DNA of 24,121 bases, from positions 1 through 24,121 of the IMG/VR virus record IMGVR_UViG_3300034791_000391; one strand, written 5' to 3'. Made by a program: the position numbers and the translations under genes. The number at the start of each line of letters is the position of its first letter. Position 1 is the first letter of the stretch. Origin of the DNA: a virus. Below the pieces are notes generated by a model. That model saw only the letters and a list, made by a program, of their open reading frames with translations. It was not told the DNA's origin and made no database searches. Of the stretch, positions 1 to 24,121 are shown piece after piece.

Positions 1-182
1 ATAAGAACTTCAAGGAAGAGCCGTTGATTGGAACAGCTAAGTACGTAAACAAGTACCTGTCTGAACAGGGTGTATCCGTAGGAGATCGAATAACTTTTAA
101 GCCAGAGAGTGAATATGAGTTTGAAGTAGATGGAGAAAAGCTATACAGGATGTATGATCATCAAATAACTGTGGTGCTATGA
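1..182 (+). CDS. GroES-like co-chaperonin, C-terminal part (5' end outside window)
   Basis: An open frame enters from the left edge (first full codon at position 3) and ends with TGA at 180-182, leaving 59 residues. The visible part reads KNFKEEPLIGTAKYVNKYLS, then GDRITFKP, a YEFEVDGEKLYRM strand pair and a final HQITVVL. This matches the C-terminal half of the Cpn10/GroES beta-barrel: a VGDRI/VGDKV-type strand, a -VDGEK-(L/Y)-Y-RM- hairpin and a closing hydrophobic strand like the DILAVV end of GroES. Phages carry such proteins (T4 gp31 is the model) to adapt the host GroEL chamber for folding their capsid protein, so a position just ahead of the head genes fits. The stop overlaps the next start (ATGA, 179-182), implying translational coupling. 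The N-terminal half, including the mobile loop that contacts GroEL, is not in the window, so the assignment is probable rather than certain. Confidence 0.68.
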   Translation, partial: KNFKEEPLIGTAKYVNKYLSEQGVSVGDRITFKPESEYEFEVDGEKLYRMYDHQITVVL

Positions 183-646
183 TTGTATTTTCTTTAGATG
201 ATGTGATAAAAGATCCTGACGCGTATGTTGATGACATATTAAGCAGAGGATTTGCTGATGTTCCTGATGGAGATAAAGTTTTTAAAGGTATTCAGCCTAG
301 GCCTCACGACGAGCTTCAAAGCTTTGTAATGACTATGTTTCCAGATTACGTTACAACTTATAATTTTGTAAGACAATCTAGCTTGCATCAAGTTGAACCA
401 AATTTTATTCACACTGACGAGATGATGGGGGATAAGACGGTGGTTTTGTATTTAAATAAAACTTTTCCTAAGCAAGCAGGAACTACTCTGTATAAAGGTG
501 AAACTCCAATGTGTACGCTCTACGCCGAATACAACCGAATGATTGTGTTTGATTCTCGGATTCCTCATTCAAGAAATATATTTGAAAACTTTGGAGAGGG
601 TGAAAACTCAAGGTTAGCTCAGGTGATGTTTATAAAAAAAGTTTAA
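179..646 (+). CDS. 2-oxoglutarate/Fe(II)-dependent oxygenase (prolyl-4-hydroxylase-like fold)
   Basis: This 155-residue protein carries the iron- and 2-oxoglutarate-binding signature of the double-stranded beta-helix oxygenases. An HxD pair (H78, D80 in FIHTDE) is followed about 50 residues later by a third ligand (H130 in RIPHSRN), and a basic residue 15 further on (R145 in NSRLAQVMF) should bind the 2-oxoglutarate carboxylate. Strands such as TVVLYLN and RMIVFDS frame the site. The family hydroxylates proteins, nucleic acids or small molecules with O2 and 2-oxoglutarate, and the fold here is closest to the prolyl hydroxylase/PKHD-like group. It lies in a translationally coupled chain: its ATG overlaps the upstream TGA and its TAA overlaps the next ATG (TAATG, 644-648). 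The substrate is not visible. Such oxygenases are common in marine phages with unknown targets; the Pro-Thr-rich virion proteins further down are one candidate substrate (see findings). Confidence 0.85.
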   Translation: MIVFSLDDVIKDPDAYVDDILSRGFADVPDGDKVFKGIQPRPHDELQSFVMTMFPDYVTTYNFVRQSSLHQVEPNFIHTDEMMGDKTVVLYLNKTFPKQAGTTLYKGETPMCTLYAEYNRMIVFDSRIPHSRNIFENFGEGENSRLAQVMFIKKV

Positions 647-11529: not shown

Positions 11530-14500
11530 ATGGCAAAAACTCAAAGAAATTTTGTTAAAGGGCGGATGAACAAAAGCCTTGATGAAAGGCTTCTACCTAA
11601 TGGTGAATATGAAGACGCATTAAATGTAAGGCTAGGTTCTACAGAAGACTCTGAGATTGGTACTGTTGAAAACTCAAAGGGAAACACTCAGCTTACAGCG
11701 TTAATTTATAAAGATGAAATTAGATTAAGCGCAGAAGCGAAGACTATAGGAGCTTATGAGGATGGTGCTAATGAGACTATATATTGGTTTGTTCATGACC
11801 CAGCTTTTACTTCAGGAGAAACTGGTAGATTAGATTTAATTGTTTCTTTTAACACTACAACCGGAAGAGCAACCTATCACGTTGTTAGTATAGATGACGG
11901 AAGTGGTATAGTTACGACTCTTAACTTCGATCCAAAATATTTAATAACAGGCGTAAATTTAGTTGGAGATTTATTGTTTTTTACAGACAATTTGAATCCC
12001 CCTAGGTTTATAAATGTTATAAGAAACTATCCAATTCCTAGCGCTTCTAATGTAGACGGCTTTACAGCTGAGAGTATTTTGGTTATAAAAAAACCACCAA
12101 TCGCCGCTCCAACAATAGCTCCTTTTGTCAACGCCTCACAAAATAATTTTTTAGAAAATAAATTTATTTGTTTTGCTTATCGCTATGAGTATCAAAACGG
12201 ACAATTTTCTGCAGTATCTCAGTTTAGTGACCCAGCTTTTTTATCTAAATCTTTTTCTTTTAGTTATAATACTTTTCTTAACGAAGGGATGACTAATTCT
12301 GCAAATGCTGTTTCAATAACATACAACACGGGAGGTCCTTTAGTTACTGGAATTGAATTGTTATTTAAAGAAATGAATGACCCTACTATTAAAGTAATAG
12401 AGAGGATTAATAAAGATGAGGCTGGATTACAGCCCGACAACGACCAAGTATATGTTTTTGATAATCAAAAAATATTTACTGTACTTCCTGAATATGAAAT
12501 ACTAAGGCTTTACGATAATGTCCCTATAACCGCTAAGGCTCAAACTTTAATGGGGAATAGGATTGTTTATGGAAATTATGTAGAGGGATACAATTTAGAA
12601 GATAGGTTTGGAGCTCCTTTAAATCTTTCATTTGAAGCCAACTTAAAGACTTTAGACATAGACCTGTCTACTGTACCTGACTCAACTAATAGCGGAGAAT
12701 ACCGTCTTGATGGTAGTTCAGAAAATATTCCTGCATCTATATTTAATATAGATCTAACGGCTTTTGATAATCCAGAGTCTTTAAAGACTGGTGCTAACAT
12801 ATCTTTTAATTTTACATTTGAACACTCTTCTTTTAATGGAATAGGAGTTAACACTGATTTTCCTGATGCCACAACCACAGCCACAAGTATTTCTTTTGTT
12901 TATATATTAGCTCAAGACTTTACCTCAGTACATGATTTAGTAATTAGTAATGATTTTGTATCAAGAGTCGGTACTGCAGCAACAATAAAAACTGTTGCTA
13001 ATTCATGCGACGGAACAACACTTACTGATCAATTCAACTGTCTTATACCTGCCCTTCTTGGATCTTACGAAAAAGTAGCTAGCGGAATATCGGAAATAGA
13101 TCAACCTATTACTATTACTTCAAGCCCAAACTCTGGGGTCGTAGGATTTCAGATTGTGGCTATGAGATTTAGAAATCCAACAGGGCCTAAATTTTTAACC
13201 GAATACTATACTATATTAAGCGGATCTGCTTCATATCAAAAAATAAACAACGCCTTTAGTCTTCATAGCAATAGAGGGTACGAGCTAGGCATGGTTTACA
13301 TGGATGAATTTAATAGATCTTCTACAGCTTTAGTAAGTCCTGAAAACACAATACACATTCCTTGCGCTAACTCAGCTTTGCTTAATACTATACAAGCTAC
13401 AATACCTGGGGGCATTTCAGCGCAAACAGCTCCTGATTGGGCAAAAAGATATAAGTTTGTAATTAAACCTAGTAAAAGCACGTATGAAACGATTTACACA
13501 AATGAGTTTTATAACGATCCTGAAGACAATTATGTTTACTTTCTTTTAGAAGGTGAAAACGCAAACAAGGTTGAAGCGGGAGATCGATTAATTGTTAAAA
13601 GAGACTCTCAAGGGCCAAGAACTAATTGTACTTACACTACGGTTTTAGAAAAAGAATCTAAGGCTGCTGATTTTTTAACTATTGAAAACCCCTTAAACCC
13701 TGGTCAGACTCCGCAGGATAATATTTCTATTCAGTCTGGGGTATACATGAAGCTTAGCCCTAATAACTTTATAGCTAACAACAATGAGACACCTGGGGGA
13801 GATGTTTTTGAACCAGGGTTTCTTACGGAAAAAGGTGATTTAAGCGGAAATAATCCTGGCTCATATGCGATGAACGCATATCCTGTTAACATTTCTGATG
13901 CTGCAAGCCCCGCTGATTATGTAGATGTTACTGTTCCGGGCGGTAGTTTTTCTACAATGTATTTTAGACTTGCAAGAGGGAGGGCGGGAACATATTCTGG
14001 CGCTTGCGATGGCAGAGAGTATGTTTTAGAAATAGAAAATAGAGCAAGTGCTGACTACAATAATTTTAAAGATTATTGGGATGGAGAGAATTTAGGAGAC
14101 TTAATAGATACTGGGGTATCGGATTTTTCAAATGACCGCGCACCTGCATTTAAAAACTTTTATGTTTCCACACTATTAACTGAAGCTAGAAACCCTTTAA
14201 TAACTGATTTCACAACTGCGGCTAATTTTAATATTTGGCAGTTTTTTAGAAACAGTATTACAAATCAATTGTTTCTAGTAACAGTTGGAGGGCCTGGATG
14301 TGAACGCTACAATGCCCTTTTTACTGGAAGTAGATTTCATGCAGAAACAGAGATTGTTGTAGATAGGTCAGACGGAACTATTGTTTTTGAAACTTTGCCT
14401 ACTGATGCTTTGCCTGATGTGTGGTATGAAAATGATTTATCTTTTCCTATTGACGATTTAGGTCAGCACAGCGGCAACGTTCAAGATCAAATAATTAATT

Positions 14501-16965
14501 TTGAAACCACAGGGGCAACAGCGACTCAAGATGCAATAATAGACACGGGATTTTATGACTGCATTTCTTTTGGAAATGGTGTTGAGAGTTATAAGATGAG
14601 AGACTCTATTAACGGAAAAGCTTTAACTTACGGGAACAGAGTAACAAGTACTTCTGCTGAGTTATACAAGGAAGCCAATAGATTCGCAGACTTAACTTAT
14701 AGCGGAATATTTAATGACGAATCTAATGTTAATAAGCTAAACGAATTCAACTTAGGTTTATTAAATTTTAAACCACTTGAAGAGTCTTACGGTCCTATAG
14801 AAAAGTTAGACGGAAGACGTACAGATATATTAGTCTTACAAGAAGATAAAATATCTTATGTATTAGTGGAGAAGGATCTTCTTTCTGATGCGTCTGGTGG
14901 TGGAGCTTTAACCTCTGTACCTCAGGTTTTGGGAACTCAAATTGCTAGATCTGAAGAATATGGCATAAGTAATAATCCAGAGAGTTATACGAGATATGGA
15001 GTAGATAGATTTTTTACAGATCAAAAAAGAGGAGCTGTTATTCAGCTTAGAGGAAGTAGCGCTCAAAATGATCAGCTTCAAGTTATCTCTCAGTTTGGAA
15101 TGAGAGGTTGGTTTAGAGACTTTTTTATTGACACTGTTTCTAATCAAAAGTTAGGAGGGTTTGATCCTTACATGAACGAATATGTGTTAGCTTCAACGGG
15201 TCAAAGTTTAGCGCCTATAGAAATTCCTTGTTTGGCTGGAGGATCTGTTGAAAACATAACGATTACTCCAGGTGAAGAAATAACTTATTGCGTTGACGTA
15301 GGTCAAGATGTGGGAATTGTTGACGTAGACTTTACCATTCCCCCAGGGAATTCAGGAAATGAATATACGATTGACGCCTTGTACAATGGATCTAGAGTGT
15401 CTAGTGGAAGACAAGCTTCTAGCGGTAGAATAAGTGTTTCCAAAGGACAAACTGATCCATCTGAGGTTACTATAATAGCATCAACAACAGCAACAAGTCC
15501 TGATACAATACAGATTAAAGTAAGTAATGTTCAGAAAAAACCATTAAATCTGTACAGCATTGCGCTAACAAGTAGCGGAGAAGCCGGAGAGTTTATTCAC
15601 AACCAATATGCTTGGACTGACGGAGCGTTTAGATCTCCTCTTCATTCAAATTTAGTTTCAATTGGAAACGATCCTGCTAATCCTTCAGTATCTCAATACA
15701 CTAAAGTCAGTGGTCCTCAGGGTAGCGGAATAGTTCCTACTGAAGGAGCTGCGGTTACCATGATAAGCAATAATATTGAATCAGATAATTTTAATTTTAA
15801 CCCCTTAAACAACACCTTTCAGTACCTAAGAACTCCTGTTTTATACGGTAATAGCGCTGCAGATGTATTAGCTTTAAAGGCCGCAGCAACTTTAGCAACG
15901 CCTACAGTTGTTACTCCCGGAAACCCTAATAGATACTCTGCTGATTTTATAATGCCAGGTGGATCTGATAATGATAATCTTTATTTGCTTTGGGATTACA
16001 GAAACGCTACTTCAGCAGTTCTTTGTCAAGAAAACACATTAAGAGATGCGTGTTGTGTTTGCGAAATTAATCCTAGCAAAAATTGTGAAGAAGGGGTATC
16101 TTACTCTGGCGTTTCTCAATATCCTTCTACTACAATAATAAATTTAGGATCAGACATAGGAAGTGTTTCTTTACAATTTAATGCATCAGATTCTCCTGAC
16201 AGATTTACAGTAGAGTTCGATGGAGTTGTTGTAATAGACACTGGATACAGAGGGAATCCGATTTATCAAGGACAACTTAATACTGCTTTAGCTGCTTTAG
16301 GTGCAGCTCCAGCTAGAATAACGCCACCGGATAGTGGATCGGTTTCGTTTACGAAGTCTAATGCATTTCCTACCGCAATATTAAAGGTTTATTCTCCTTT
16401 AGATCCTGCGGCTTGGACTGCTATAGTTAGTTGTGTTAGTGCAGTAACACCTGTGCCTACAGCGACGCCTACGCCTACTCCAACGGCATTACCGATAACG
16501 CCTACACCGACGGCAGCAACGCCAACTCCTACAGCAACTCCTGCAGGACAAACGCCAACTCCAACTCCTGTACCAACAGCGACTCCTACGAGTACCCCAG
16601 CTACACCGACACCGAGTCCTACAGCTGCTACTCCTGTACCGGCAACGCCTACACCAACGGCAGTGCCCGTAACACCTACTCCAACCGCTACACCGCTTAG
16701 TTTATTTGGAATAGATGCTCTTTTGACTGTTTTCTCTAGTAGTAGTGACGCGTGTGATGAAGGAGTGAGTGGCACTAATCAAATTTTTACAGCAACAAAT
16801 GGAGTTATTTTACCCGAACCTGGAGCTCAATTGTATACCACCTCTTCTGGCGGAGTTTGGACTTACGGAGCAGGCTACATGGCAATAGATGAGCCAGGTT
16901 CATCCGATCCATCTTATGTACAATTCAATTCTAGCGGGGTTACAATAGATTCAGGAATTTGTTAA
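11530..16965 (+). CDS. Giant tail hub / muzzle-like structural protein with Pro-Thr tract and Cys-ended C-terminal module
   Basis: This 1811-residue protein starts with a signature seen in hub or 'stabilization' proteins of Bacteroidota podoviruses: NFVKGRMNKSLDERLLPNGE followed by YEDALNVR and GTVENSKGN (about residues 7-52). Most of the body (to about 1500) is beta-rich repetitive sequence consistent with beta-propeller or stacked-sandwich folds, as in P22 gp10 and the crAss muzzle; it would close the tail and bind the receptor-recognition proteins. A Cys cluster (ACCVCEINPSKNC, about 1507-1519) leads into a beta-sandwich-like module (about 1519-1637) with FTVEFDGVVVIDTGYRGN and a final SC. 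A mucin-like Pro-Thr tract (about 1640-1722) and a small module ending in Cys (about 1723-1811) follow. No transmembrane segment is apparent. The next gene continues in the same frame after a single TAA (see findings). Confidence 0.75.
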   Translation: MAKTQRNFVKGRMNKSLDERLLPNGEYEDALNVRLGSTEDSEIGTVENSKGNTQLTALIYKDEIRLSAEAKTIGAYEDGANETIYWFVHDPAFTSGETGRLDLIVSFNTTTGRATYHVVSIDDGSGIVTTLNFDPKYLITGVNLVGDLLFFTDNLNPPRFINVIRNYPIPSASNVDGFTAESILVIKKPPIAAPTIAPFVNASQNNFLENKFICFAYRYEYQNGQFSAVSQFSDPAFLSKSFSFSYNTFLNEGMTNSANAVSITYNTGGPLVTGIELLFKEMNDPTIKVIERINKDEAGLQPDNDQVYVFDNQKIFTVLPEYEILRLYDNVPITAKAQTLMGNRIVYGNYVEGYNLEDRFGAPLNLSFEANLKTLDIDLSTVPDSTNSGEYRLDGSSENIPASIFNIDLTAFDNPESLKTGANISFNFTFEHSSFNGIGVNTDFPDATTTATSISFVYILAQDFTSVHDLVISNDFVSRVGTAATIKTVANSCDGTTLTDQFNCLIPALLGSYEKVASGISEIDQPITITSSPNSGVVGFQIVAMRFRNPTGPKFLTEYYTILSGSASYQKINNAFSLHSNRGYELGMVYMDEFNRSSTALVSPENTIHIPCANSALLNTIQATIPGGISAQTAPDWAKRYKFVIKPSKSTYETIYTNEFYNDPEDNYVYFLLEGENANKVEAGDRLIVKRDSQGPRTNCTYTTVLEKESKAADFLTIENPLNPGQTPQDNISIQSGVYMKLSPNNFIANNNETPGGDVFEPGFLTEKGDLSGNNPGSYAMNAYPVNISDAASPADYVDVTVPGGSFSTMYFRLARGRAGTYSGACDGREYVLEIENRASADYNNFKDYWDGENLGDLIDTGVSDFSNDRAPAFKNFYVSTLLTEARNPLITDFTTAANFNIWQFFRNSITNQLFLVTVGGPGCERYNALFTGSRFHAETEIVVDRSDGTIVFETLPTDALPDVWYENDLSFPIDDLGQHSGNVQDQIINFETTGATATQDAIIDTGFYDCISFGNGVESYKMRDSINGKALTYGNRVTSTSAELYKEANRFADLTYSGIFNDESNVNKLNEFNLGLLNFKPLEESYGPIEKLDGRRTDILVLQEDKISYVLVEKDLLSDASGGGALTSVPQVLGTQIARSEEYGISNNPESYTRYGVDRFFTDQKRGAVIQLRGSSAQNDQLQVISQFGMRGWFRDFFIDTVSNQKLGGFDPYMNEYVLASTGQSLAPIEIPCLAGGSVENITITPGEEITYCVDVGQDVGIVDVDFTIPPGNSGNEYTIDALYNGSRVSSGRQASSGRISVSKGQTDPSEVTIIASTTATSPDTIQIKVSNVQKKPLNLYSIALTSSGEAGEFIHNQYAWTDGAFRSPLHSNLVSIGNDPANPSVSQYTKVSGPQGSGIVPTEGAAVTMISNNIESDNFNFNPLNNTFQYLRTPVLYGNSAADVLALKAAATLATPTVVTPGNPNRYSADFIMPGGSDNDNLYLLWDYRNATSAVLCQENTLRDACCVCEINPSKNCEEGVSYSGVSQYPSTTIINLGSDIGSVSLQFNASDSPDRFTVEFDGVVVIDTGYRGNPIYQGQLNTALAALGAAPARITPPDSGSVSFTKSNAFPTAILKVYSPLDPAAWTAIVSCVSAVTPVPTATPTPTPTALPITPTPTAATPTPTATPAGQTPTPTPVPTATPTSTPATPTPSPTAATPVPATPTPTAVPVTPTPTATPLSLFGIDALLTVFSSSSDACDEGVSGTNQIFTATNGVILPEPGAQLYTTSSGGVWTYGAGYMAIDEPGSSDPSYVQFNSSGVTIDSGIC
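16442..16695 (+). repeat. Pro-Thr-rich coding tract in the hub protein
   Basis: About 83 codons encode a low-complexity string dominated by Thr-Pro and Ala (units such as TPTPTA and TPTATP). Synonymous codons change from unit to unit, so the protein repeat is much stronger than the DNA repeat. It probably forms an extended, possibly O-glycosylated spacer before the last module. Confidence 0.9.
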
Positions 16966-16986: not shown

Positions 16987-19944
16987 ATGGGACGAGGAAC
17001 TTTTTATTTTGACGCAGCTACTTTTGAGAACGCTGTTGCGGTTTTTACTAACAGTGGCTTAACTAATTGTGCGCCAGATGGATATTATTCTGATGGAATA
17101 AATGTTCGTCGTCAAGTAAATTGTGTTTTATTGGCTTTAGAAGCTTGTCCAGATTGTACAGCTGAAACACCAACACCAACTGCTACACCAACGCAAACAC
17201 CTACTCCCACAGCTGCAACGCCTACTCCTACAGTAACTTTTGCAACACCTACCCCTACAGCTGCAACACCCACCCCTACAGCTGCAACACCGAGTCCAGT
17301 GCCTCCAACACCGACTCCCACGTCAGTGCCTTCAGGATTCTATTATGAGTTAGAGCCTTGCTTAACACCAGGTGGTGTAGTTGTAGACGCATGTTATATA
17401 TACGAAACATCATCTCCACTAGCATATCAGCAATATTTAAATTCCAATAATGGTCTTTACTATTACTATAACATTGATACGTCTTCAGTTATTATAACTG
17501 TTCAAGCTGTAGCAGCTGGTAATAGATATTTTGTAGATGGTACACAGCAATCTAATATTAATTTAATACCAGGGGCAACTTATTTAATTGATCAAAGCAA
17601 CGCTTCAAACGACGGTCATCCTCTTATATTAAGCACTACAACGCCATCGCAAACAGAATATTCTACAGGAGTAGTTTATTTATTAGATAATGTGGTTACT
17701 ACATATGCAAATTACATAAACACAACTATTTTTAATGCCGCAACTACAAGGCAGTTAAGAGTAACGCTTGAACTAACAGCGCCTACTTTATATTATGTAT
17801 GTGCTATACATCAAAACATGGGTGCAGATATTTCGCGTAACGCTGGCTTAATAAGCGTTGATCAAGATTTAGTTTGTACTGGAAACATGGAATTAAACCC
17901 TGGTGTTATAAACTGTCCTCCAGTTTCTGAAACAACAAAATACAGTCTTCAGGATTGTGATACTTTGCTTGACAATTTCTACAGTGAAACTACTCAAAAC
18001 TTTGTTGTCGGATCTAGAGTAAAGGATGACCTTACGGGCAATGTTTTTAACGTGACTGGTATAATTACAGACACTTCTGGACTTGGAAACGTGGGAAGTA
18101 TAACTTGTTTGGATTCAAATGGTTTAACGCCTGACGATATTGGATTTACTTTTTGCACAACTGGATGTCCTCCCGCTATAACAGCTACACCTACGCCTAC
18201 TGCTGTTACTCCTACACCTACCGTAACTCCGACTGCGACAGTAACACCAACGCCCACAGGGACGCCTTTAACTCCGACACCCACTCCAACATCTTCGGCG
18301 GCAACTCCGACACCAACACCTACCGTAACTCCGACACCCACGCAAACAGGAACACCAACGCCTACTCCAACGGTAACGGCTGCTACACCAACCCCTACAG
18401 GAACTCCTACAGCTACACCTACACCTACACCGACAAGCACACCTACGCAGACCCCTACAGGAACTCCTACAGCTACACCGACTGGTACACCAACACCTAC
18501 CGCAACATCAGCCACACCTACACCGACAGTTACGGCTACGCCTACACCAACGGGGACACCTACTGCTACACCTACTGTAACGCCTACGGTTTACGCTTTA
18601 AACCATGCTTTACCTCAATCATCTAAAGGTGCGTCTTGTGGAACAGTGTCAGATCAAGGGATACTATACACAACTAGAAGTAGAGGAGTTGATATTGAAG
18701 TAGGGGATACAATATATGCTAATTCTTCACTTACTATAACTTTTAATGGAGGAAACAATTACTATGGAGTTGCTACATCAACAGGAGATGTTACGGAACA
18801 AGAAACAAGAATTCAGACAAATGGTTTAGTGGTAGAGTCAGAGTCTTGCATATTCCCAACGGCTACGCCGACATCTACTCCTACGCCGACAGTTACGGCT
18901 ACGCCTACTCCAACAGCAACCCCTACCGCTACACCTACCGCAACCGCTACACCAACAGCAACCCCTACTGCTACTGCGACACCAACCGCGACACCAGCTA
19001 CGCCTACACCAACTGCTACAGGGACTCCTACGCCGACTCCTGATGGACCAACACCAACGCCAACTGCAGTTACTCCTACTCCTACTCCTAGTGCTACTCC
19101 AACTGCTACGCCGACATCAACACCAGCTACACCGACACCAACTGCTACACCAACGCCAACTGCTACAGGGACTCCTACGCCGACTCCTGATGGACCGACA
19201 CCTACACCGACTGCCACACCTACAGTTACCCCCGTAACACCAACTCCGACAGCTACGCCTACGGCCACACCAACAGTTACCCCTGTAACACCAACACCGG
19301 TAACGCCTACTCCTGTAACGCCAACTGCGACAGCTACTCCGACTGCTACTCCGACTGCTACGCCTACAGCTACTCCAACGCAGACTCCAACGCAAACTCC
19401 AACGCAGACTCCTACAGCTACACCAACACAAACGCCCGCTACGCCGACGCCTACTGCTACGCCCGCTACGCCGACGCCTACTGCTACGCCTCCAACGCCG
19501 ACGCCTCCAACGCCGACGCCTCCAACTCCGACGCCTGCTACTCCGACGCCGACGGCTACACCTACACAGACGCCTACACAGACGCCTACACAGACGCCTA
19601 CACAGACGCCTACACAAACGCCAACGGCTACGCCGACTCCAACGCCTACGGCTACGCCACTGCCCAACTTGTACTACGTAGAGAGAAGTTCTTCTCCAGG
19701 TAGCTGTGGTGATTTGCAAAATTCTACTTACTACTGGGCAGATCCAACAGCTGCAGGGCTTAGACCAAATGGATCTATTGCTGAATTTATTGCACCTTCA
19801 GGAACTCAGGTATATGCAGATGCTAATTACGGTTCTTATTATTCAACAGGTGGAACTTATTCAATAACTCAGCCATCAACGGGTGATGACTATGAGCAGC
19901 CTATAACTAATGTAGGAATTGTTGGTTCTGACAGCTCATGTTAG
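16987..19944 (+). CDS. Mosaic virion protein: Cys-ended modules, cupredoxin-like domain and three mucin-like Pro-Thr tracts (candidate fiber/adhesin)
   Basis: This 985-residue protein is built as beads on a string. Residues 1-58 form a small module ([32 protein letters not shown]) of a kind frequent in Bacteroidota surface and phage proteins. Residues 59-115 are a Pro-Thr tract. Residues about 117-165 are a Cys-containing segment. Residues about 167-292 look like a cupredoxin-like beta-barrel, with [11 protein letters not shown] (H211) and [12 protein letters not shown] (C272, H275, M278). Residues about 300-397 form a further Cys-rich module ([16 protein letters not shown]). Pro-Thr tracts fill 397-535 and 622-892, separated by an 87-residue module ending in ESC, and a 93-residue module ending in SSC closes the protein. 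No enzymatic motif is seen. It follows the hub gene and precedes two glycosyltransferase genes, so a host-binding or decorated fiber is likely, with the tracts as glycosylated spacers. Confidence 0.75.
17161..17331 (+). repeat. Pro-Thr-rich coding tract 1 of the mosaic protein
   Basis: About 57 codons of TPTPTA-type repeats linking the first Cys-ended module to the cupredoxin-containing region. The unit CCTACAGCTGCAACACC recurs with small changes (CCTACTCCCACAGCTGCAAC, CCCACCCCTACAGCTGCAAC), indicating local duplication. Confidence 0.9.
18175..18591 (+). repeat. Pro-Thr-rich coding tract 2 of the mosaic protein
   Basis: About 139 codons of Thr-Pro repeats with Ala, Val, Gly, Ser and Gln substitutions ([18 protein letters not shown]). 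The phrase ACCCCTACAGGAACTCCTAC occurs twice (near 18390 and 18451). Neither Lys, Arg, Glu nor Asp appears in it. Confidence 0.9.
19009..19196 (+). repeat. Exact 41-base direct repeat, copies 147 bases apart
   Basis: The same 41 bases occur at 19009-19049 and 19156-19196, encoding the phrase [13 protein letters not shown] with identical codons. The 147-base period is exactly 49 codons, so the duplication kept the frame. It is the only place in the tract where Asp appears. Confidence 0.9.
19435..19488 (+). repeat. 27-base tandem repeat, two exact copies
   Basis: 19435-19461 and 19462-19488 are identical and start CCCGCTACGCCGACGCCTAC; each encodes nine residues (PATPTPTAT). Recent in-frame duplication. 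Confidence 0.92.
19489..19533 (+). repeat. 15-base tandem repeat, three copies
   Basis: CCTCCAACGCCGACG occurs exactly at 19489-19503 and 19504-19518, and with one change at 19519-19533. It encodes PPTPT three times. Confidence 0.9.
19561..19620 (+). repeat. 12-base tandem repeat, four exact copies plus one variant
   Basis: CCTACACAGACG repeats at 19561, 19573, 19585 and 19597, followed by a one-base variant at 19609. It encodes PTQT five times. This is the most slippage-prone spot in the window; gain or loss of units would keep the frame. Confidence 0.92.
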
Positions 19945-19962
19945 GGGTTAGTTAAATTTTAC

Positions 19963-19970
19963 TACCTTTG
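19963..19970 (+). promoter_or_regulatory. -7 element TACCTTTG ahead of the glycosyltransferase genes
   Basis: TACCTTTG fits TAnnTTTG and lies 34 bases before the TTG start at 19997. The leader that follows is A/T-only apart from two bases. No convincing -33 TTG. Confidence 0.5.
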
Positions 19971-19996
19971 AAATAAGATAATTAAATTTAATTCAA

Positions 19997-21226
19997 TTGG
20001 AAACTATTTTTGTACAAATTGCGAGCTATCGTGATCCAGAACTATTACCCACAATAAAAGATTTACTGTTAAAAGCTGATAACCCTGACGCTCTAACTAT
20101 ATGTATTGCCCATCAGCATAGTAAAGAAGATGAGTGGGATACGTTAGAGAAATACGCTAATGACGGAAGGTTTATAATAATAGATATTCCACACGAAGAG
20201 TCTAATGGAGCGTGTTGGGCTAGGAATCAAATTCAACAACATTACGATAATCAAACGTATACACTACAATTAGATTCTCACCATAGATTTGTAGACGGAT
20301 GGGATACCATCTCTATAGATATGCTAAAGTCTTTACAAAAAAAAGGACACCCTAAGCCTTTGTTGACAGGGTACATACCTTCTTATGATCCAACCAACGA
20401 TCCTAAGGGAAGGCATGATAAACCTTGGGGTATGTCTTTTGATAGGTTTACACCAGAGGGCGTGGTTTTCTTTATGCCTTATCATATGGATAACAGCGTA
20501 AAAGAACCTGTTTTAGCTAGGTTTTATTCAGCTCATTTTGCATTCACCTTAGGGGAGTTTTGTAACGAGGTTCAGCATGACCCTTCTTTTTACTTTCACG
20601 GAGAAGAAATTACTATAGGCGTTAGAGCATTTACTTGTGGATATGATCTGTTTCATCCGCATAAAATTATTGCTTGGCATGAATATACTAGAGAAGGTAG
20701 AACTAAACATTGGGACGATAGTTCTGATTGGGGAAAAAGAAATACTAGGACTCACAAAAAAACTAGACAACTACTAGGTATTGATGGCGAGATTTGTTCT
20801 CCTTGTAATAAAAAATCTTTTGTCGGATACGATATAGGATCAGAGAGAAGTATAAATGACTATGAGATTTACTCAGGTATTAGGTTTAAAGATAGAGCTA
20901 TTACTAATAGTTGTGTAAAAAACTTATTACCTCCTGGTAATAAAGACCAAGAGTATATGCCAAAATTCAAGCACGCAATAGATTTAAATAAAAGTTTGTT
21001 TCCAGAAAGAGATTATGACTTCGTGGTATTAGCTTTTGAAGACAAAAATGGAGAGGCTATACATAGAAGAGATATAACTAAGGATGAGATAGCATCTCAT
21101 TTAAAGGCCTCTAGCGAGTCTTTTACGGTATGGAGAGAGTATAATGGACCTAGACCCTACCAATGGGTTATATGGCCTTACAGCGCCTCTAAAGGGTGGA
21201 CAGATAGAAAGGTTGTTGTTTTATGA
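19997..21226 (+). CDS. GlcNAc-transferase-like glycosyltransferase (PF11397 / Skp1 GnT1 type)
   Basis: This 409-residue protein begins METIFVQIASYRDPELLPTI, the typical opening of the GlcNAc glycosyltransferase family that includes the Dictyostelium Skp1 hydroxyproline GlcNAc-transferase. The family core follows: GACWARNQIQQHY (71-83) and LQLDSHHRFVDGWD (90-103), where D93-S-H95 is the DxD-like metal/nucleotide-sugar site. Next are YSAHFAFTLGEFCNEV (177-192), the FHGEEI motif (200-205) and HEYTR (228-232). The C-terminal part (about 330-409) is an extra small domain I do not recognise. The expected reaction is transfer of a sugar, probably GlcNAc from UDP-GlcNAc, onto a protein acceptor. The start is TTG at 19997, because the conserved IFVQIASYRD begins three codons later and no ATG precedes it in frame. 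It overlaps the next gene by ATGA (21223-21226). Its upstream neighbour is the Pro-Thr-rich protein, a plausible acceptor. Confidence 0.88.
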   Translation: METIFVQIASYRDPELLPTIKDLLLKADNPDALTICIAHQHSKEDEWDTLEKYANDGRFIIIDIPHEESNGACWARNQIQQHYDNQTYTLQLDSHHRFVDGWDTISIDMLKSLQKKGHPKPLLTGYIPSYDPTNDPKGRHDKPWGMSFDRFTPEGVVFFMPYHMDNSVKEPVLARFYSAHFAFTLGEFCNEVQHDPSFYFHGEEITIGVRAFTCGYDLFHPHKIIAWHEYTREGRTKHWDDSSDWGKRNTRTHKKTRQLLGIDGEICSPCNKKSFVGYDIGSERSINDYEIYSGIRFKDRAITNSCVKNLLPPGNKDQEYMPKFKHAIDLNKSLFPERDYDFVVLAFEDKNGEAIHRRDITKDEIASHLKASSESFTVWREYNGPRPYQWVIWPYSASKGWTDRKVVVL

Positions 21227-23517
21227 TACCAAAGATTATACATCAAACTTTTGAAACAAAGTTTACTCCTCCAGGAATGTCTAGAGCTAGAGGAAGTTGG
21301 TCTGCTAATAATCCAGAGTATGTATATAAGTTCTACGAAGCTACAGATAGGATAGATTTTATTAAAAATAATTTTCCTGTTAGCGTATTAAAAGCTTATC
21401 ACGATATAATACCAGGGGCATTTAAAGCTGATCTATTTAGATACTGTGTTTTATATATAGAGGGAGGGGTTTATGCAGATTCCGACACCACCTGCCTTAC
21501 GCCTTTAGATGAATACATAAATAAAGACACTAGCCTTTTAGTAGTCAGGGATGACCCCATGGCAAAGAAGTGGTTGGCAAATGCATTTATAGCAACTAGG
21601 CCAAAAGAGGGTATATTCTTAGATGCCATAAACAGATGTGTAGAAAATATAAAGAGCAGAAAGGAAATGTTTTATTTAGACTATACAGGCCCTGGCCTTC
21701 TAGGCAAGTGTGTAAACAGAAGATTAAACAGGGAGATTGAAACGGAATATGAGTTAGGAAGTCAAGATATAAATGGTTTAAAATTTAAAATACTAAAACA
21801 CGACTTTACAAGCACTGAATTTAAATACAACGACAAGCCTGTTATACACGTAGAGTATCCTACCTACAGAGAGGAGATGAAGGAGCTAAACAATAAACCT
21901 TTCTATCATTACGTTCAAAACAATATTATATTTAAAAAGATTCCAAATAAAATAATATACACCACTTACGACGCTCTAGATGTAAACAGTTACATGGTGG
22001 ATTCTTTTACTAAATTAAATCCTGAATATGATTTAGTTTACTTCAATCAACAAAAAGTAGATGAGTGGTTTAAAAAAAGCATATACAACGAAGCTTATCT
22101 AAAACTAAAAGAACGCGGTGAGAAATCAGACTTCTTTAGATATTGTTATTTATGGGAGAATGGCGGAGTGTATGTAGATGCAGACATATATTGCAATCAG
22201 CCTTTAAGGAATTGGATTAACCATCAAGACCTTATAGTTGGCCTAGAAGCAGAAACAGACTCTGAAGATCCTATGTTTAAAGGCATAGGAATTAAAGTAG
22301 GAAACAAAATGTTAAGCGTTTGTAACTGGGCAATTGCCTCAGCACCAAAACAACAACCTATTGGTCGTTTAATTGATGACATAATAAACAATCCAACCTC
22401 TGGAGTTTTACAGAATACAGGACCTGGAAGATTTACAAAACATATCATAAATTATTTTGGAGATAAAAGGTCTATTGATAACTGTATGTTATTGCCTATC
22501 AACGCTTTAGGATCTAATCAATCTCATAGCGGATCGTTTAAAAGCAACAGGCCGTTTGAAGTAGATAGATCAGATGTTTATTTAACACATATGTTTGCGG
22601 GTAGCTGGAGAGGGAATCAGAAAAGAAAATCAATCAATCTAATTCCAAAAGAAGTAAAGCCATCGGTAAGCCACAACATAACAATTTCAAAAGATAAAGA
22701 TGGATACATTGGTGTTGCTAGGTATGACGTAGACACAGCTAGGACTGAGTTTATGAAAAAACTCGGAAGCTCTACTAGCTTATTAGAGTACAAGTTTGAC
22801 AAAAGGTTTAATATTGTTTCAAAAGAAATAAAAAATATACAAGGAGCAAATCAATCTTATAAATTTGAAGACTATAGAGAATTTAAACATAAAGGCACAA
22901 GCTATTATTGCGTGGCATATTTAGATAAAAAGTTCAACACTTACATGGGTGTCTTAGATTCTAAATATAATTTCCTAGGAAGAATAAACATCGACCGAAA
23001 CCATAAGATGAGTTTTGGTATAGGTGGTGTGGTGGCGTGGGAGAAAAATTGGTTGTTCTTTGAAAAAGAAAACGAACTTTACTTTATCTACTCTACAACT
23101 CCAAACTTAATAATTTATAAGTGTAAAGATTTTAGCACATTGTCTTTTGAGGTTTACAGCAACACTCCAAACGTTTATGAATCAGCGCTACCTAAAGATC
23201 AACTTTACTTTTCATCAAACACCTCTACGGGAGGATCTACTAATCCCATATATGATTCTCAAAACAACTGCTACGTATATTTAATTCACACAAAAATATA
23301 TAAAGAAAGAGGCTACAATCATTTTGCAGTTTCTCTAGACAAAGACTTAAATATAATGAACATAAATCCTATTCCATTTATAGGATACAAGATTGGATAT
23401 GCTTTGATGTTTATAACTACAATGATTGAAAACAAAGATCATTACGTTATTTGCGGAGGAATAGAAGACAATCAAAACTTCATCTGGGAGATACCCAAGT
23501 CTAGACTATCTATTTAA
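21223..23517 (+). CDS. Two-domain GT32-type glycosyltransferase fused to a GH130/GH43-like beta-propeller
   Basis: The 764 residues contain two related sugar-transferase domains and one more. Domain 1 (about 1-232) opens IPKIIHQTF, has PGAFKADLFRYCVLYIEGG (64-82), a DxD site at D86-S-D88 and TGPG at 155-158, as in OCH1/capsular GT32 enzymes. Domain 2 (about 240-465) repeats the plan: IPNKIIYTTYD, KSDFFRYCYLWENGGVY (301-317), D319-A-D321, TGPG (399-402) and HMFAGSW (456-462). The C-terminal domain (about 485-764) looks like a five-bladed propeller of the GH43/GH130 group, with SKDKDGYIGVARYD, FEDYREF (compare EDPRxF), EKNWLFF (compare KNWxPF) and YVYLIHTK. It may bind a glycan rather than cleave it. 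Both transferase domains keep their metal-binding aspartates, so both may be active and add successive sugars. Coupled to the preceding transferase by ATGA. Confidence 0.87.
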   Translation: MIPKIIHQTFETKFTPPGMSRARGSWSANNPEYVYKFYEATDRIDFIKNNFPVSVLKAYHDIIPGAFKADLFRYCVLYIEGGVYADSDTTCLTPLDEYINKDTSLLVVRDDPMAKKWLANAFIATRPKEGIFLDAINRCVENIKSRKEMFYLDYTGPGLLGKCVNRRLNREIETEYELGSQDINGLKFKILKHDFTSTEFKYNDKPVIHVEYPTYREEMKELNNKPFYHYVQNNIIFKKIPNKIIYTTYDALDVNSYMVDSFTKLNPEYDLVYFNQQKVDEWFKKSIYNEAYLKLKERGEKSDFFRYCYLWENGGVYVDADIYCNQPLRNWINHQDLIVGLEAETDSEDPMFKGIGIKVGNKMLSVCNWAIASAPKQQPIGRLIDDIINNPTSGVLQNTGPGRFTKHIINYFGDKRSIDNCMLLPINALGSNQSHSGSFKSNRPFEVDRSDVYLTHMFAGSWRGNQKRKSINLIPKEVKPSVSHNITISKDKDGYIGVARYDVDTARTEFMKKLGSSTSLLEYKFDKRFNIVSKEIKNIQGANQSYKFEDYREFKHKGTSYYCVAYLDKKFNTYMGVLDSKYNFLGRINIDRNHKMSFGIGGVVAWEKNWLFFEKENELYFIYSTTPNLIIYKCKDFSTLSFEVYSNTPNVYESALPKDQLYFSSNTSTGGSTNPIYDSQNNCYVYLIHTKIYKERGYNHFAVSLDKDLNIMNINPIPFIGYKIGYALMFITTMIENKDHYVICGGIEDNQNFIWEIPKSRLSI

Positions 23518-23536
23518 TACATTAAGAATAAAATCG

Positions 23537-23544
23537 TAATTTTG
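23537..23544 (+). promoter_or_regulatory. -7 element TAATTTTG ahead of the last gene
   Basis: TAATTTTG fits TAnnTTTG and sits 26 bases before the ATG at 23563, repeating the spacing seen at 5626. No matching TTG upstream. Confidence 0.48.
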
Positions 23545-23562
23545 TAGTTACAATATTTATAT

Positions 23563-24121
23563 ATGAGTTACTACACATGTGGCACTAGAGCAAACTCTGG
23601 ATTTAGCGGCGGGGAAATATACAAGGGAGGTGACGGCGTGAGATATAGGGTTGCGTCAAGAAAAACTATAAATGTCCCAAACAACCTACAAGAAGTTCAA
23701 GCAACTATAGAGGTTACTAAGTATGGCGGCCCAGAAAGTGTTTTAGCAATGGGAGTTGTTTTAAACAGCGCGGGGGGTGAAGCCTTTAGATTTTATCCAG
23801 CCTTTGCTGGAGCTGAAGTTTTTGGTTCTGATGCAACAGTAAAAGAGGAAGATTACAGCGCTGGAAGTACGCTAGCTTCTGGAGACTACACTGTAATAAA
23901 TTTTGAGTTGGTGGATGGCGTCAATTCATACGGTACTTCTATAATATGTATTGAGGGAGAAGAGCAAATTCCTGTTACTCCTGCACCTGAGACTCCTGTT
24001 CCAACACCCGAACCAACCACCCCTCCTACTCCGACTCCAGCCACTCCTACTCCAAGTCCCACACCAGTCCCAACGGCTACGCCTATACCACTTAATCCTG
24101 TGCCGTCATTAATACTTCCTT
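23563..24121 (+). CDS. Third Pro-Thr-tract protein, 5' part only (3' end outside window)
   Basis: An ATG at 23563 opens a frame that stays open to the right edge, giving 186 residues. It starts MSYYTCGTRANSGFSGGEIY. The first 135 residues form one beta-rich domain (TINVPNNLQEVQATIEVTKY, MGVVLNSAGGEAFRFY, TLASGDYTVINFELV) with a Cys near each end (C6 and C129). From about residue 137 to 175 it turns into a Pro-Thr tract with some Glu ([18 protein letters not shown]), followed by the start of another segment (LNPVPSLIL). The layout, a small domain then a Pro-Thr linker, matches the mosaic protein upstream, and it has its own -7 element and an A/T-rich leader. It is probably another fiber, adhesin or decoration protein and another possible acceptor for the glycosyltransferases just before it. 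Confidence 0.8.
   Translation, partial: MSYYTCGTRANSGFSGGEIYKGGDGVRYRVASRKTINVPNNLQEVQATIEVTKYGGPESVLAMGVVLNSAGGEAFRFYPAFAGAEVFGSDATVKEEDYSAGSTLASGDYTVINFELVDGVNSYGTSIICIEGEEQIPVTPAPETPVPTPEPTTPPTPTPATPTPSPTPVPTATPIPLNPVPSLILP
23971..24090 (+). repeat. Pro-Thr-rich coding tract in the last gene
   Basis: About 40 codons of Thr-Pro repeats with a few Glu residues, shorter and less regular than the tracts at 17161-19662. It shows that the spacer type is shared by at least three genes here. Confidence 0.85.

Follow-up and report, generated by a model that had tools for sequence, protein, structure and literature searches.

A phage gene cassette joining two GT32 domains and a GH130-like propeller, with a predicted role in mucin-like O-glycosylation

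GT32 glycosyltransferases, GH130-like propellers, GT60 enzymes and the glycosylation of phage virions are all known already, each on its own. Here we describe a marine phage locus that brings the first three together. It lies in the 24,121-base viral record IMGVR_UViG_3300034791_000391, which was analysed over its full length and is referred to as the window. At its centre is one open reading frame (ORF), called here the fusion, which encodes two GT32 domains followed by a GH130-like five-bladed propeller and overlaps a GT60-type gene. We consider it somewhat probable that the two genes form a mucin-like O-glycosylation cassette, in which the GT60-type enzyme initiates and the fusion extends a glycan on a substrate deduced from the neighbouring genes. 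In a partial coverage of the literature we found neither this combination of domains and its link to mucin-like virion proteins, nor any paper on GT32 together with GT60 in viruses. To our knowledge, pathways of protein O-glycosylation are seldom attributed to phages, and we know of no agreed function for threonine/proline (Thr/Pro) repeats in phage tail proteins.

The closest relatives of the transferase half are the GT32 enzymes (PF04488), such as the α-1,6-mannosyltransferase Och1 (9n3s), with which it shares the GT-A fold and the DxD, GGVY and TGPG motifs, and in its second domain also HMFxGSW. It differs in that a single chain contains two copies, the first of which has an unusual C-terminal ending, and in being phage-borne and fused to a propeller. 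The propeller resembles GH130 β-mannoside phosphorylases and mannosidases (7fir, 5b0q, 5a7v) in its five blades and in having N, R, ED.R, K and D in register, whereas it has no significant profile match, has its phosphate or Glu/Glu positions replaced, and always stands behind GT32.

Protein glycosylation of the kind proposed here, starting with N-acetylglucosamine (GlcNAc), has been described above all in protozoan parasites and in amoebae. GT60 includes the polypeptide GlcNAc-transferases of Trypanosoma cruzi and of Skp1, the latter (Gnt1) acting on hydroxyproline (PMC6939170). In T. cruzi, the enzyme initiates glycans at Thr residues in mucin-like proteins (PMC3769586). The neighbour of the fusion belongs to the same family (PF11397) and has a putative Thr/Pro-rich acceptor beside it, as in T. 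cruzi, although the phage gene stands in a tail operon and encodes a putative enzyme known from its sequence. A GH130-type propeller is also employed in glycan synthesis by the Leishmania GT108 mannosyltransferase-phosphorylases (PMC8950772); these are stand-alone enzymes of mannogen metabolism, and they are likened to the fusion by fold class rather than by direct comparison. Finally, mycobacteriophages carry glycans on capsid and tail proteins (Freeman et al. 2023, cited in PMC12619734). These are other phages, and the account as cited there describes no Thr/Pro-rich mucin-like acceptor.

Domains of the fusion protein

The fusion gene occupies 21223-23517 of the plus strand, which also carries the genes described below between 11530 and 24121, and encodes 764 residues from an ATG start with no internal stop; the antisense strand across it is rich in stops. 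When 2.9 million viral contigs were searched with the fusion protein, 20 loci were found; a few others came from a search with its C-terminal domain, giving a family of 28 loci that includes some near-duplicates and two contigs from metagenome-assembled genomes (MAGs). The reading frame is kept in the 20 viral loci of the first round, and the ratio of non-synonymous to synonymous substitution rates (dN/dS) over the whole protein is 0.06-0.12 in five pairs, indicating purifying selection, so that the ORF is not a product of chance. The family phrog_28262, of unknown function, matches the protein along its entire length; a relative has therefore been seen before, without a function. The initial annotation, made from the letters of the window, had recognised two GT32 domains and a GH130/GH43-type propeller in a single protein, which is borne out by the PF04488 matches, the propeller model and the structural matches. 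Domain identity, conservation, selection and gene linkage are established in this analysis.

Domain A (residues 1-236, 21223..21930) and domain B (residues 237-482, 21931..22668) each match PF04488 when searched alone, with E=1e-13 and 52.2 bits for A and E=5.3e-14 and 53.1 bits for B (cut-off 23). An AlphaFold2 (AF2) model of the two together has a GT-A fold and a mean predicted local distance difference test score (pLDDT) of 89.2. Its top match in the PDB is Och1 (E=2.7e-12), and GT-A transferases that are bacterial effectors or toxins rank next. The motifs cited in the annotation are present at the residues given: GGVY at 81-84 and 314-317, the DxD sites D86/D88 and D319/D321, TGPG at 155-158 and 399-402, and, in the propeller, EDYREF at 549-554 and KNW at 608-610. 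Since D86/D88 is invariant in 20/20 relatives having domain A, and D319/D321 in 18/18 having domain B, neither donor site is degenerate by this measure.

The initial annotation also described the transferase region as a tandem duplication with both copies apparently intact, a view that survives in part. The DxD sites are indeed intact in both, and TGPG and GGVY are shared, but the canonical Och1-type ending HxxxGSW is found only in domain B (HMFAGSW, residues 456-462), where it is invariant. Domain A has invariant H193 and E211-Y212 in its place; HxxxGSW is also missing from some bacterial PF04488 proteins. In a tree, A and B each form one clade with 100/100 support and a long stem, and in a tree that includes 18 bacterial PF04488 domains they remain apart. 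A recent tandem duplication was rejected because of these two deep clades, for which joint rooting is not possible; a common origin of A and B, separate from the bacterial GT32s, is a possibility. Judged from their sequences, A and B are transferases of long separate history, anciently diverged rather than freshly duplicated.

The C-terminal region (residues 483-764, 282 residues, 22669..23514) is modelled by AF2 as a propeller of around 20 strands, as the annotation had expected, with a pLDDT of 90.9 and a predicted template-modelling score (pTM) of 0.90. In a Foldseek comparison with the PDB, the best 27 matches are all GH130 phosphorylases, mannosidases or glycosidases annotated as GH130-type, with E down to 3e-8; the best structural matches share 9-14% identity. 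Pfam gives no match for this domain of the window protein, and a sub-threshold match to GH130 (PF04041) in 5/19 relatives (best E=0.0014; 17.9 bits in the L014 relative, cut-off 26). A profile search of the domain against the PDB gives no match, and a profile-profile comparison with GH130 gives an insignificant score. Proof of kinship by sequence profile was dropped for this reason, and the kinship is suggested by the fold and the register of the motifs.

Within the propeller, N485, R500, E549-D550-x-R552, K608, H689 and D749 are invariant in 19/19 sequences. In a forced full-length alignment, whose profile score is low, N485, R500, E549-D550-x-R552 and D749 coincide with the N, R, EDPR and (G)AD that are conserved in GH130. 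K608 of the KNW motif was manually matched to the Lys conserved in the GH130 motif that follows. The catalytic acid that the annotation proposed to look for at the propeller centre thus has a candidate in D550 of EDYR, equivalent to GH130 EDPR. Mannose is recognised by N/D/D in three GH130 enzymes (PMC4264767), and the corresponding set in BT3780 is N74, R89, D142, K199 and D363 (PMC4599007). The spacing from N to R is 15 in BT3780, Teth514_1788 and the window propeller, and the mannose-site residues, including the catalytic Asp, are kept as N485, D550 and D749, on a mapping of low profile score.

The Arg of the HRP motif and the Lys of the K-I-G motif are taken here to be the phosphate-binding positions of GH130. 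The Glu pair of the hydrolases is expected to correspond to them (PMC4599007). Counted along the motifs, the inferred phosphate-binding or Glu/Glu positions are held in the fusion by T626 (T/S/I/M in the relatives) and T669 (T/V), and are never acidic. If this mapping holds, the propeller would have a sugar pocket and a candidate acid without phosphorolytic or hydrolytic machinery. The initial annotation had offered glycan binding or trimming. Because Thr, Ser or Val stands at the phosphate or two-glutamate positions, sugar binding appears likelier; a glycan-reading module would fit better, and trimming is unlikely.

Structural relatives of the propeller are found in giant viruses and in other phages. 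Those in giant viruses include BFVD entries A0A481Z3W1, A0A481Z388, A0A1V0SDN7, A0A3G5AG18 and A0A3G5AFP7, and several are long proteins named LicD, WcaK-like pyruvyltransferase or fucosyltransferase. These names suggest that GH130-like propellers have repeatedly been used alongside glycan-making enzymes, and possibly that one propeller family is used in this way across viruses.

Linkage to GT60 and to Thr/Pro-rich genes

The initial annotation left out the context that explains the fusion, which stands in a phage tail operon, overlaps a GT60-type gene and has Thr/Pro-rich genes beside it. The GT60-type polypeptide GlcNAc-transferase gene (19997..21226; PF11397, E=3e-69, 234.6 bits, cut-off 21) ends 4 bases inside the fusion, overlapping its ATG. 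Immediately upstream, at 16987..19944, is a gene for a 985-residue protein with 27% Thr, 17% Pro and 254 TP/PT dipeptides, whose homologues occupy the same position in related loci, and which is a putative acceptor. From the family and from this adjacency, the GT60-type enzyme is predicted to transfer GlcNAc to polypeptide.

GT60 adjoins the fusion in 26/28 loci. It is also far more widespread, with 74 phage GT60 loci of which most lack the fusion, as would be expected if GT60 acts first. In close relatives without the fusion, the downstream Thr/Pro-rich gene directly follows GT60; the fusion is thus an accessory acquired by a system that contains GT60.

The adjacency was examined in 51 phage GT60 loci remaining after dereplication at 90% identity, counting as Thr/Pro-rich any ORF with 12 or more TP/PT dipeptides within a stretch of 50 residues. 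Such an ORF is present in 19/51 loci, and is an immediate neighbour of GT60 in 19/19. For random genes of at least 150 residues drawn from these loci, the expected adjacency is about 27% with GT60 included in the draw, or 16% with GT60 excluded (permutation p at most 5e-5), and the result is stable at thresholds of 10-18 and when loci are dereplicated at 75%. A single syntenic family accounts for 13 of the 19 loci, which are therefore not independent; outside it the adjacency is 6/6 (p=4e-4), or 5/5 at 75% dereplication (p=0.003). Thr/Pro proteins are thus a likely acceptor of the GT60 system, and not its sole one.

In three of the loci outside the family whose neighbours were examined, the genes following GT60 encode further glycan enzymes, namely GT25, GT34, GT11, a second PF11397 protein and HtrL_YibB, and also FkbM. 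Among the phage GT60 cassettes by Thr/Pro-rich ORFs, those at L178:8992-14863, L191:8983-11467 and L193:3155-7735 differ from the window in their extenders, which are GT25, GT11, GT34, a second PF11397 protein, DUF5672 and HtrL_YibB. A GT60-type protein 41-43% identical to that of the window is present in the jumbo phages Xanthomonas phage XacN1 and Stenotrophomonas phage RAS14 (L047/L048); in XacN1 its gene adjoins a carbamoyltransferase gene.

Proposed function and other explanations

On the basis of these observations, we hypothesise the following scheme, in which the order of action, the acceptor, the donor sugars and the part played by the propeller are all inferred. The GT60-type enzyme would put a first GlcNAc on Thr (or hydroxyproline) of mucin-like repeats. 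GT32 domains A and B, each using a nucleotide sugar bound through its own DxD site, would lengthen the glycan by one or two residues, while the propeller may hold the growing glycan or its terminal sugar, giving better processivity or a check on the product. The resulting glycan coat could alter adsorption, protect the virion or lend stability to tail proteins that are long and flexible.

Several observations weigh against this scheme. Two loci, L014 and L040, carry the fusion with no GT60 in their 42- and 47-kilobase (kb) records. Of the 51 dereplicated GT60 loci, 32 have no Thr/Pro-rich ORF within reach, some phages of the family have Thr/Pro repeats without GT60, and within the family the adjacency partly reflects shared synteny. 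GT60 presence there predicts Thr/Pro repeats weakly (one-sided p=0.04, in 22 non-independent loci). The mapping of GH130 residues is one of motif register and fold, with an insignificant profile-profile score. Virion glycosylation by the cassette, with its putative substrate, donor and glycan, is itself predicted from genomic linkage.

Other roles for the propeller within the same cassette must also be weighed. It might be a third glycosyltransferase (or act by reverse phosphorolysis), allowing three linkages per protein. The invariant acid position and mannose-site residues exceed the needs of a structural role, the fold relatives in giant viruses are long proteins with the names given above, and Leishmania GT108 shows that a GH130 fold can transfer sugar (PMC8950772). 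We nevertheless regard this as fairly unlikely: T626 and T669 (Thr/Ser/Val) stand where basic phosphate-binding residues would be needed, no donor-phosphate site is evident, and no GT108 chain is among the best 50 structural matches listed. That the propeller is an active glycan-trimming hydrolase seems improbable. The candidate acid D550 is invariant and GH130 does contain inverting β-1,2-mannosidases, but the base of one of its members, BT3780, is a glutamate pair (PMC4599007), and its putative equivalents here, T626 and T669, placed by motif register only, are never acidic in 19 relatives.

The target may also be something other than the virion. Surface polysaccharides are the substrates of many GT32 and FkbM enzymes, and PF05704 (capsular synthesis) also gives a match, so the cassette might modify the lipopolysaccharide or capsule of the host and so exclude other phages. 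We consider this unlikely, given that late virion genes are interspersed with those of the cassette, that the GT60 and fusion genes overlap, that neither a lipid-linked nor an export gene could be recognised close by, and that the GT60 family acts on polypeptide and is adjacent to Thr/Pro-rich genes in 19/19 loci. Glycosylation of phage DNA bases is very improbable indeed. The known base hydroxymethylases are of the thymidylate-synthase type, no gene of which is present in 8 related records of up to 65 kb, and the cassette lies in the structural block, away from the replication block; this stands against the fact that DNA-hypermodifying phage transferases are known (Pyle et al. 2024, as cited in PMC12619734).

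Glycosylation of virion proteins by GT60 and the fusion, if true, would make the Thr/Pro repeats glycan scaffolds, and the GT60 initiator a genomic marker of such systems, because GT60 and Thr/Pro-rich genes touch in every dereplicated locus that has both. The fused extender would be a compact enzyme for making short glycans on peptides, and the propeller would show the reuse of a glycosidase-type fold in glycan synthesis or reading. A wider proposal, which we put forward tentatively as a possibility, is that phages possess their own full mucin-type system for O-glycosylation, in which GT60 initiates, extenders are interchangeable (in the window, the GT32-GT32-propeller fusion) and certain Thr/Pro-rich virion proteins serve as dedicated acceptors, and that the propeller represents a new non-hydrolytic family that reads or transfers glycans across phages and giant viruses.

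Genomic setting and variation among loci

The window is a head-tail block, containing genes for a terminase, a portal, a major capsid-type protein and a muzzle-type protein. The last is a crAss-like muzzle-type tail protein (11530..16965; PF25731 crAss_MUZ, E=8e-7) ending in a C-terminal Thr/Pro stretch (residues about 1636-1722), and is a possible acceptor. It is followed in order by the 985-residue protein, the GT60-type gene, the fusion and an ORF that starts at 23563 and continues past the window (23563..24121). This ORF has a Thr/Pro-rich stretch and is also a possible acceptor; its positional equivalent L002:12329-13729 has PHROGs matches to phage virion structural proteins. The terminase is closest to that of the uncultured podovirus genome MW202828 (76%), then to those of Flavobacterium, Cellulophaga and Tenacibaculum phages, and the genome is that of a phage related to the Cellulophaga/Flavobacterium podoviruses with a crAss-like muzzle. 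A promoter and terminator scan of 19800-24121 gave fewer sites than shuffled sequences.

Upstream of the terminase, window positions 179-646 encode a 155-residue protein like 2-oxoglutarate-Fe(II) (2OG-Fe(II)) oxygenases, with an HxD...H...R motif and weak Pfam and PHROG matches. A prolyl hydroxylase would be in keeping with the Skp1 pathway. The ORF was rejected as part of the cassette, being present in 1/29 related records, and that record has no GT60.

Two bacterial hits, L022 and L023, have the same phage-type neighbours and so look like phage sequence in MAGs; a host origin for the fusion was rejected. No isolated-phage relative was found among 50,697 phage records, from which very near records may be left out. 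The C-terminal propeller is never found alone, a GT32 domain always standing in front of it. Most loci have the A-B-C architecture. In L016/L018 it is A-C, with B missing in frame and the linker before C retained, and since the L016 transferase domain falls within clade A, beside L004, the loss of B is secondary. In L009, L010, L016, L018, L030, L031 and L034, GT60 and the fusion are separated by a distinct FkbM-type gene.

A small extra domain precedes A-B-C in L012, L013, L015, L019 and L040, recognised by eye in the first four, and in L014 and L021 it stands ahead of the fusion with an FkbM methyltransferase. This domain, of unknown function, is conserved over approximately 80 residues (INAGTSDEN...PRKF..WPD.F.V...RTD....WG..LLIDVE). 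It precedes GT32 domain A, and in L014:8981-10000 and at the N-terminus of the L021 protein it lies behind the FkbM methyltransferase domain.

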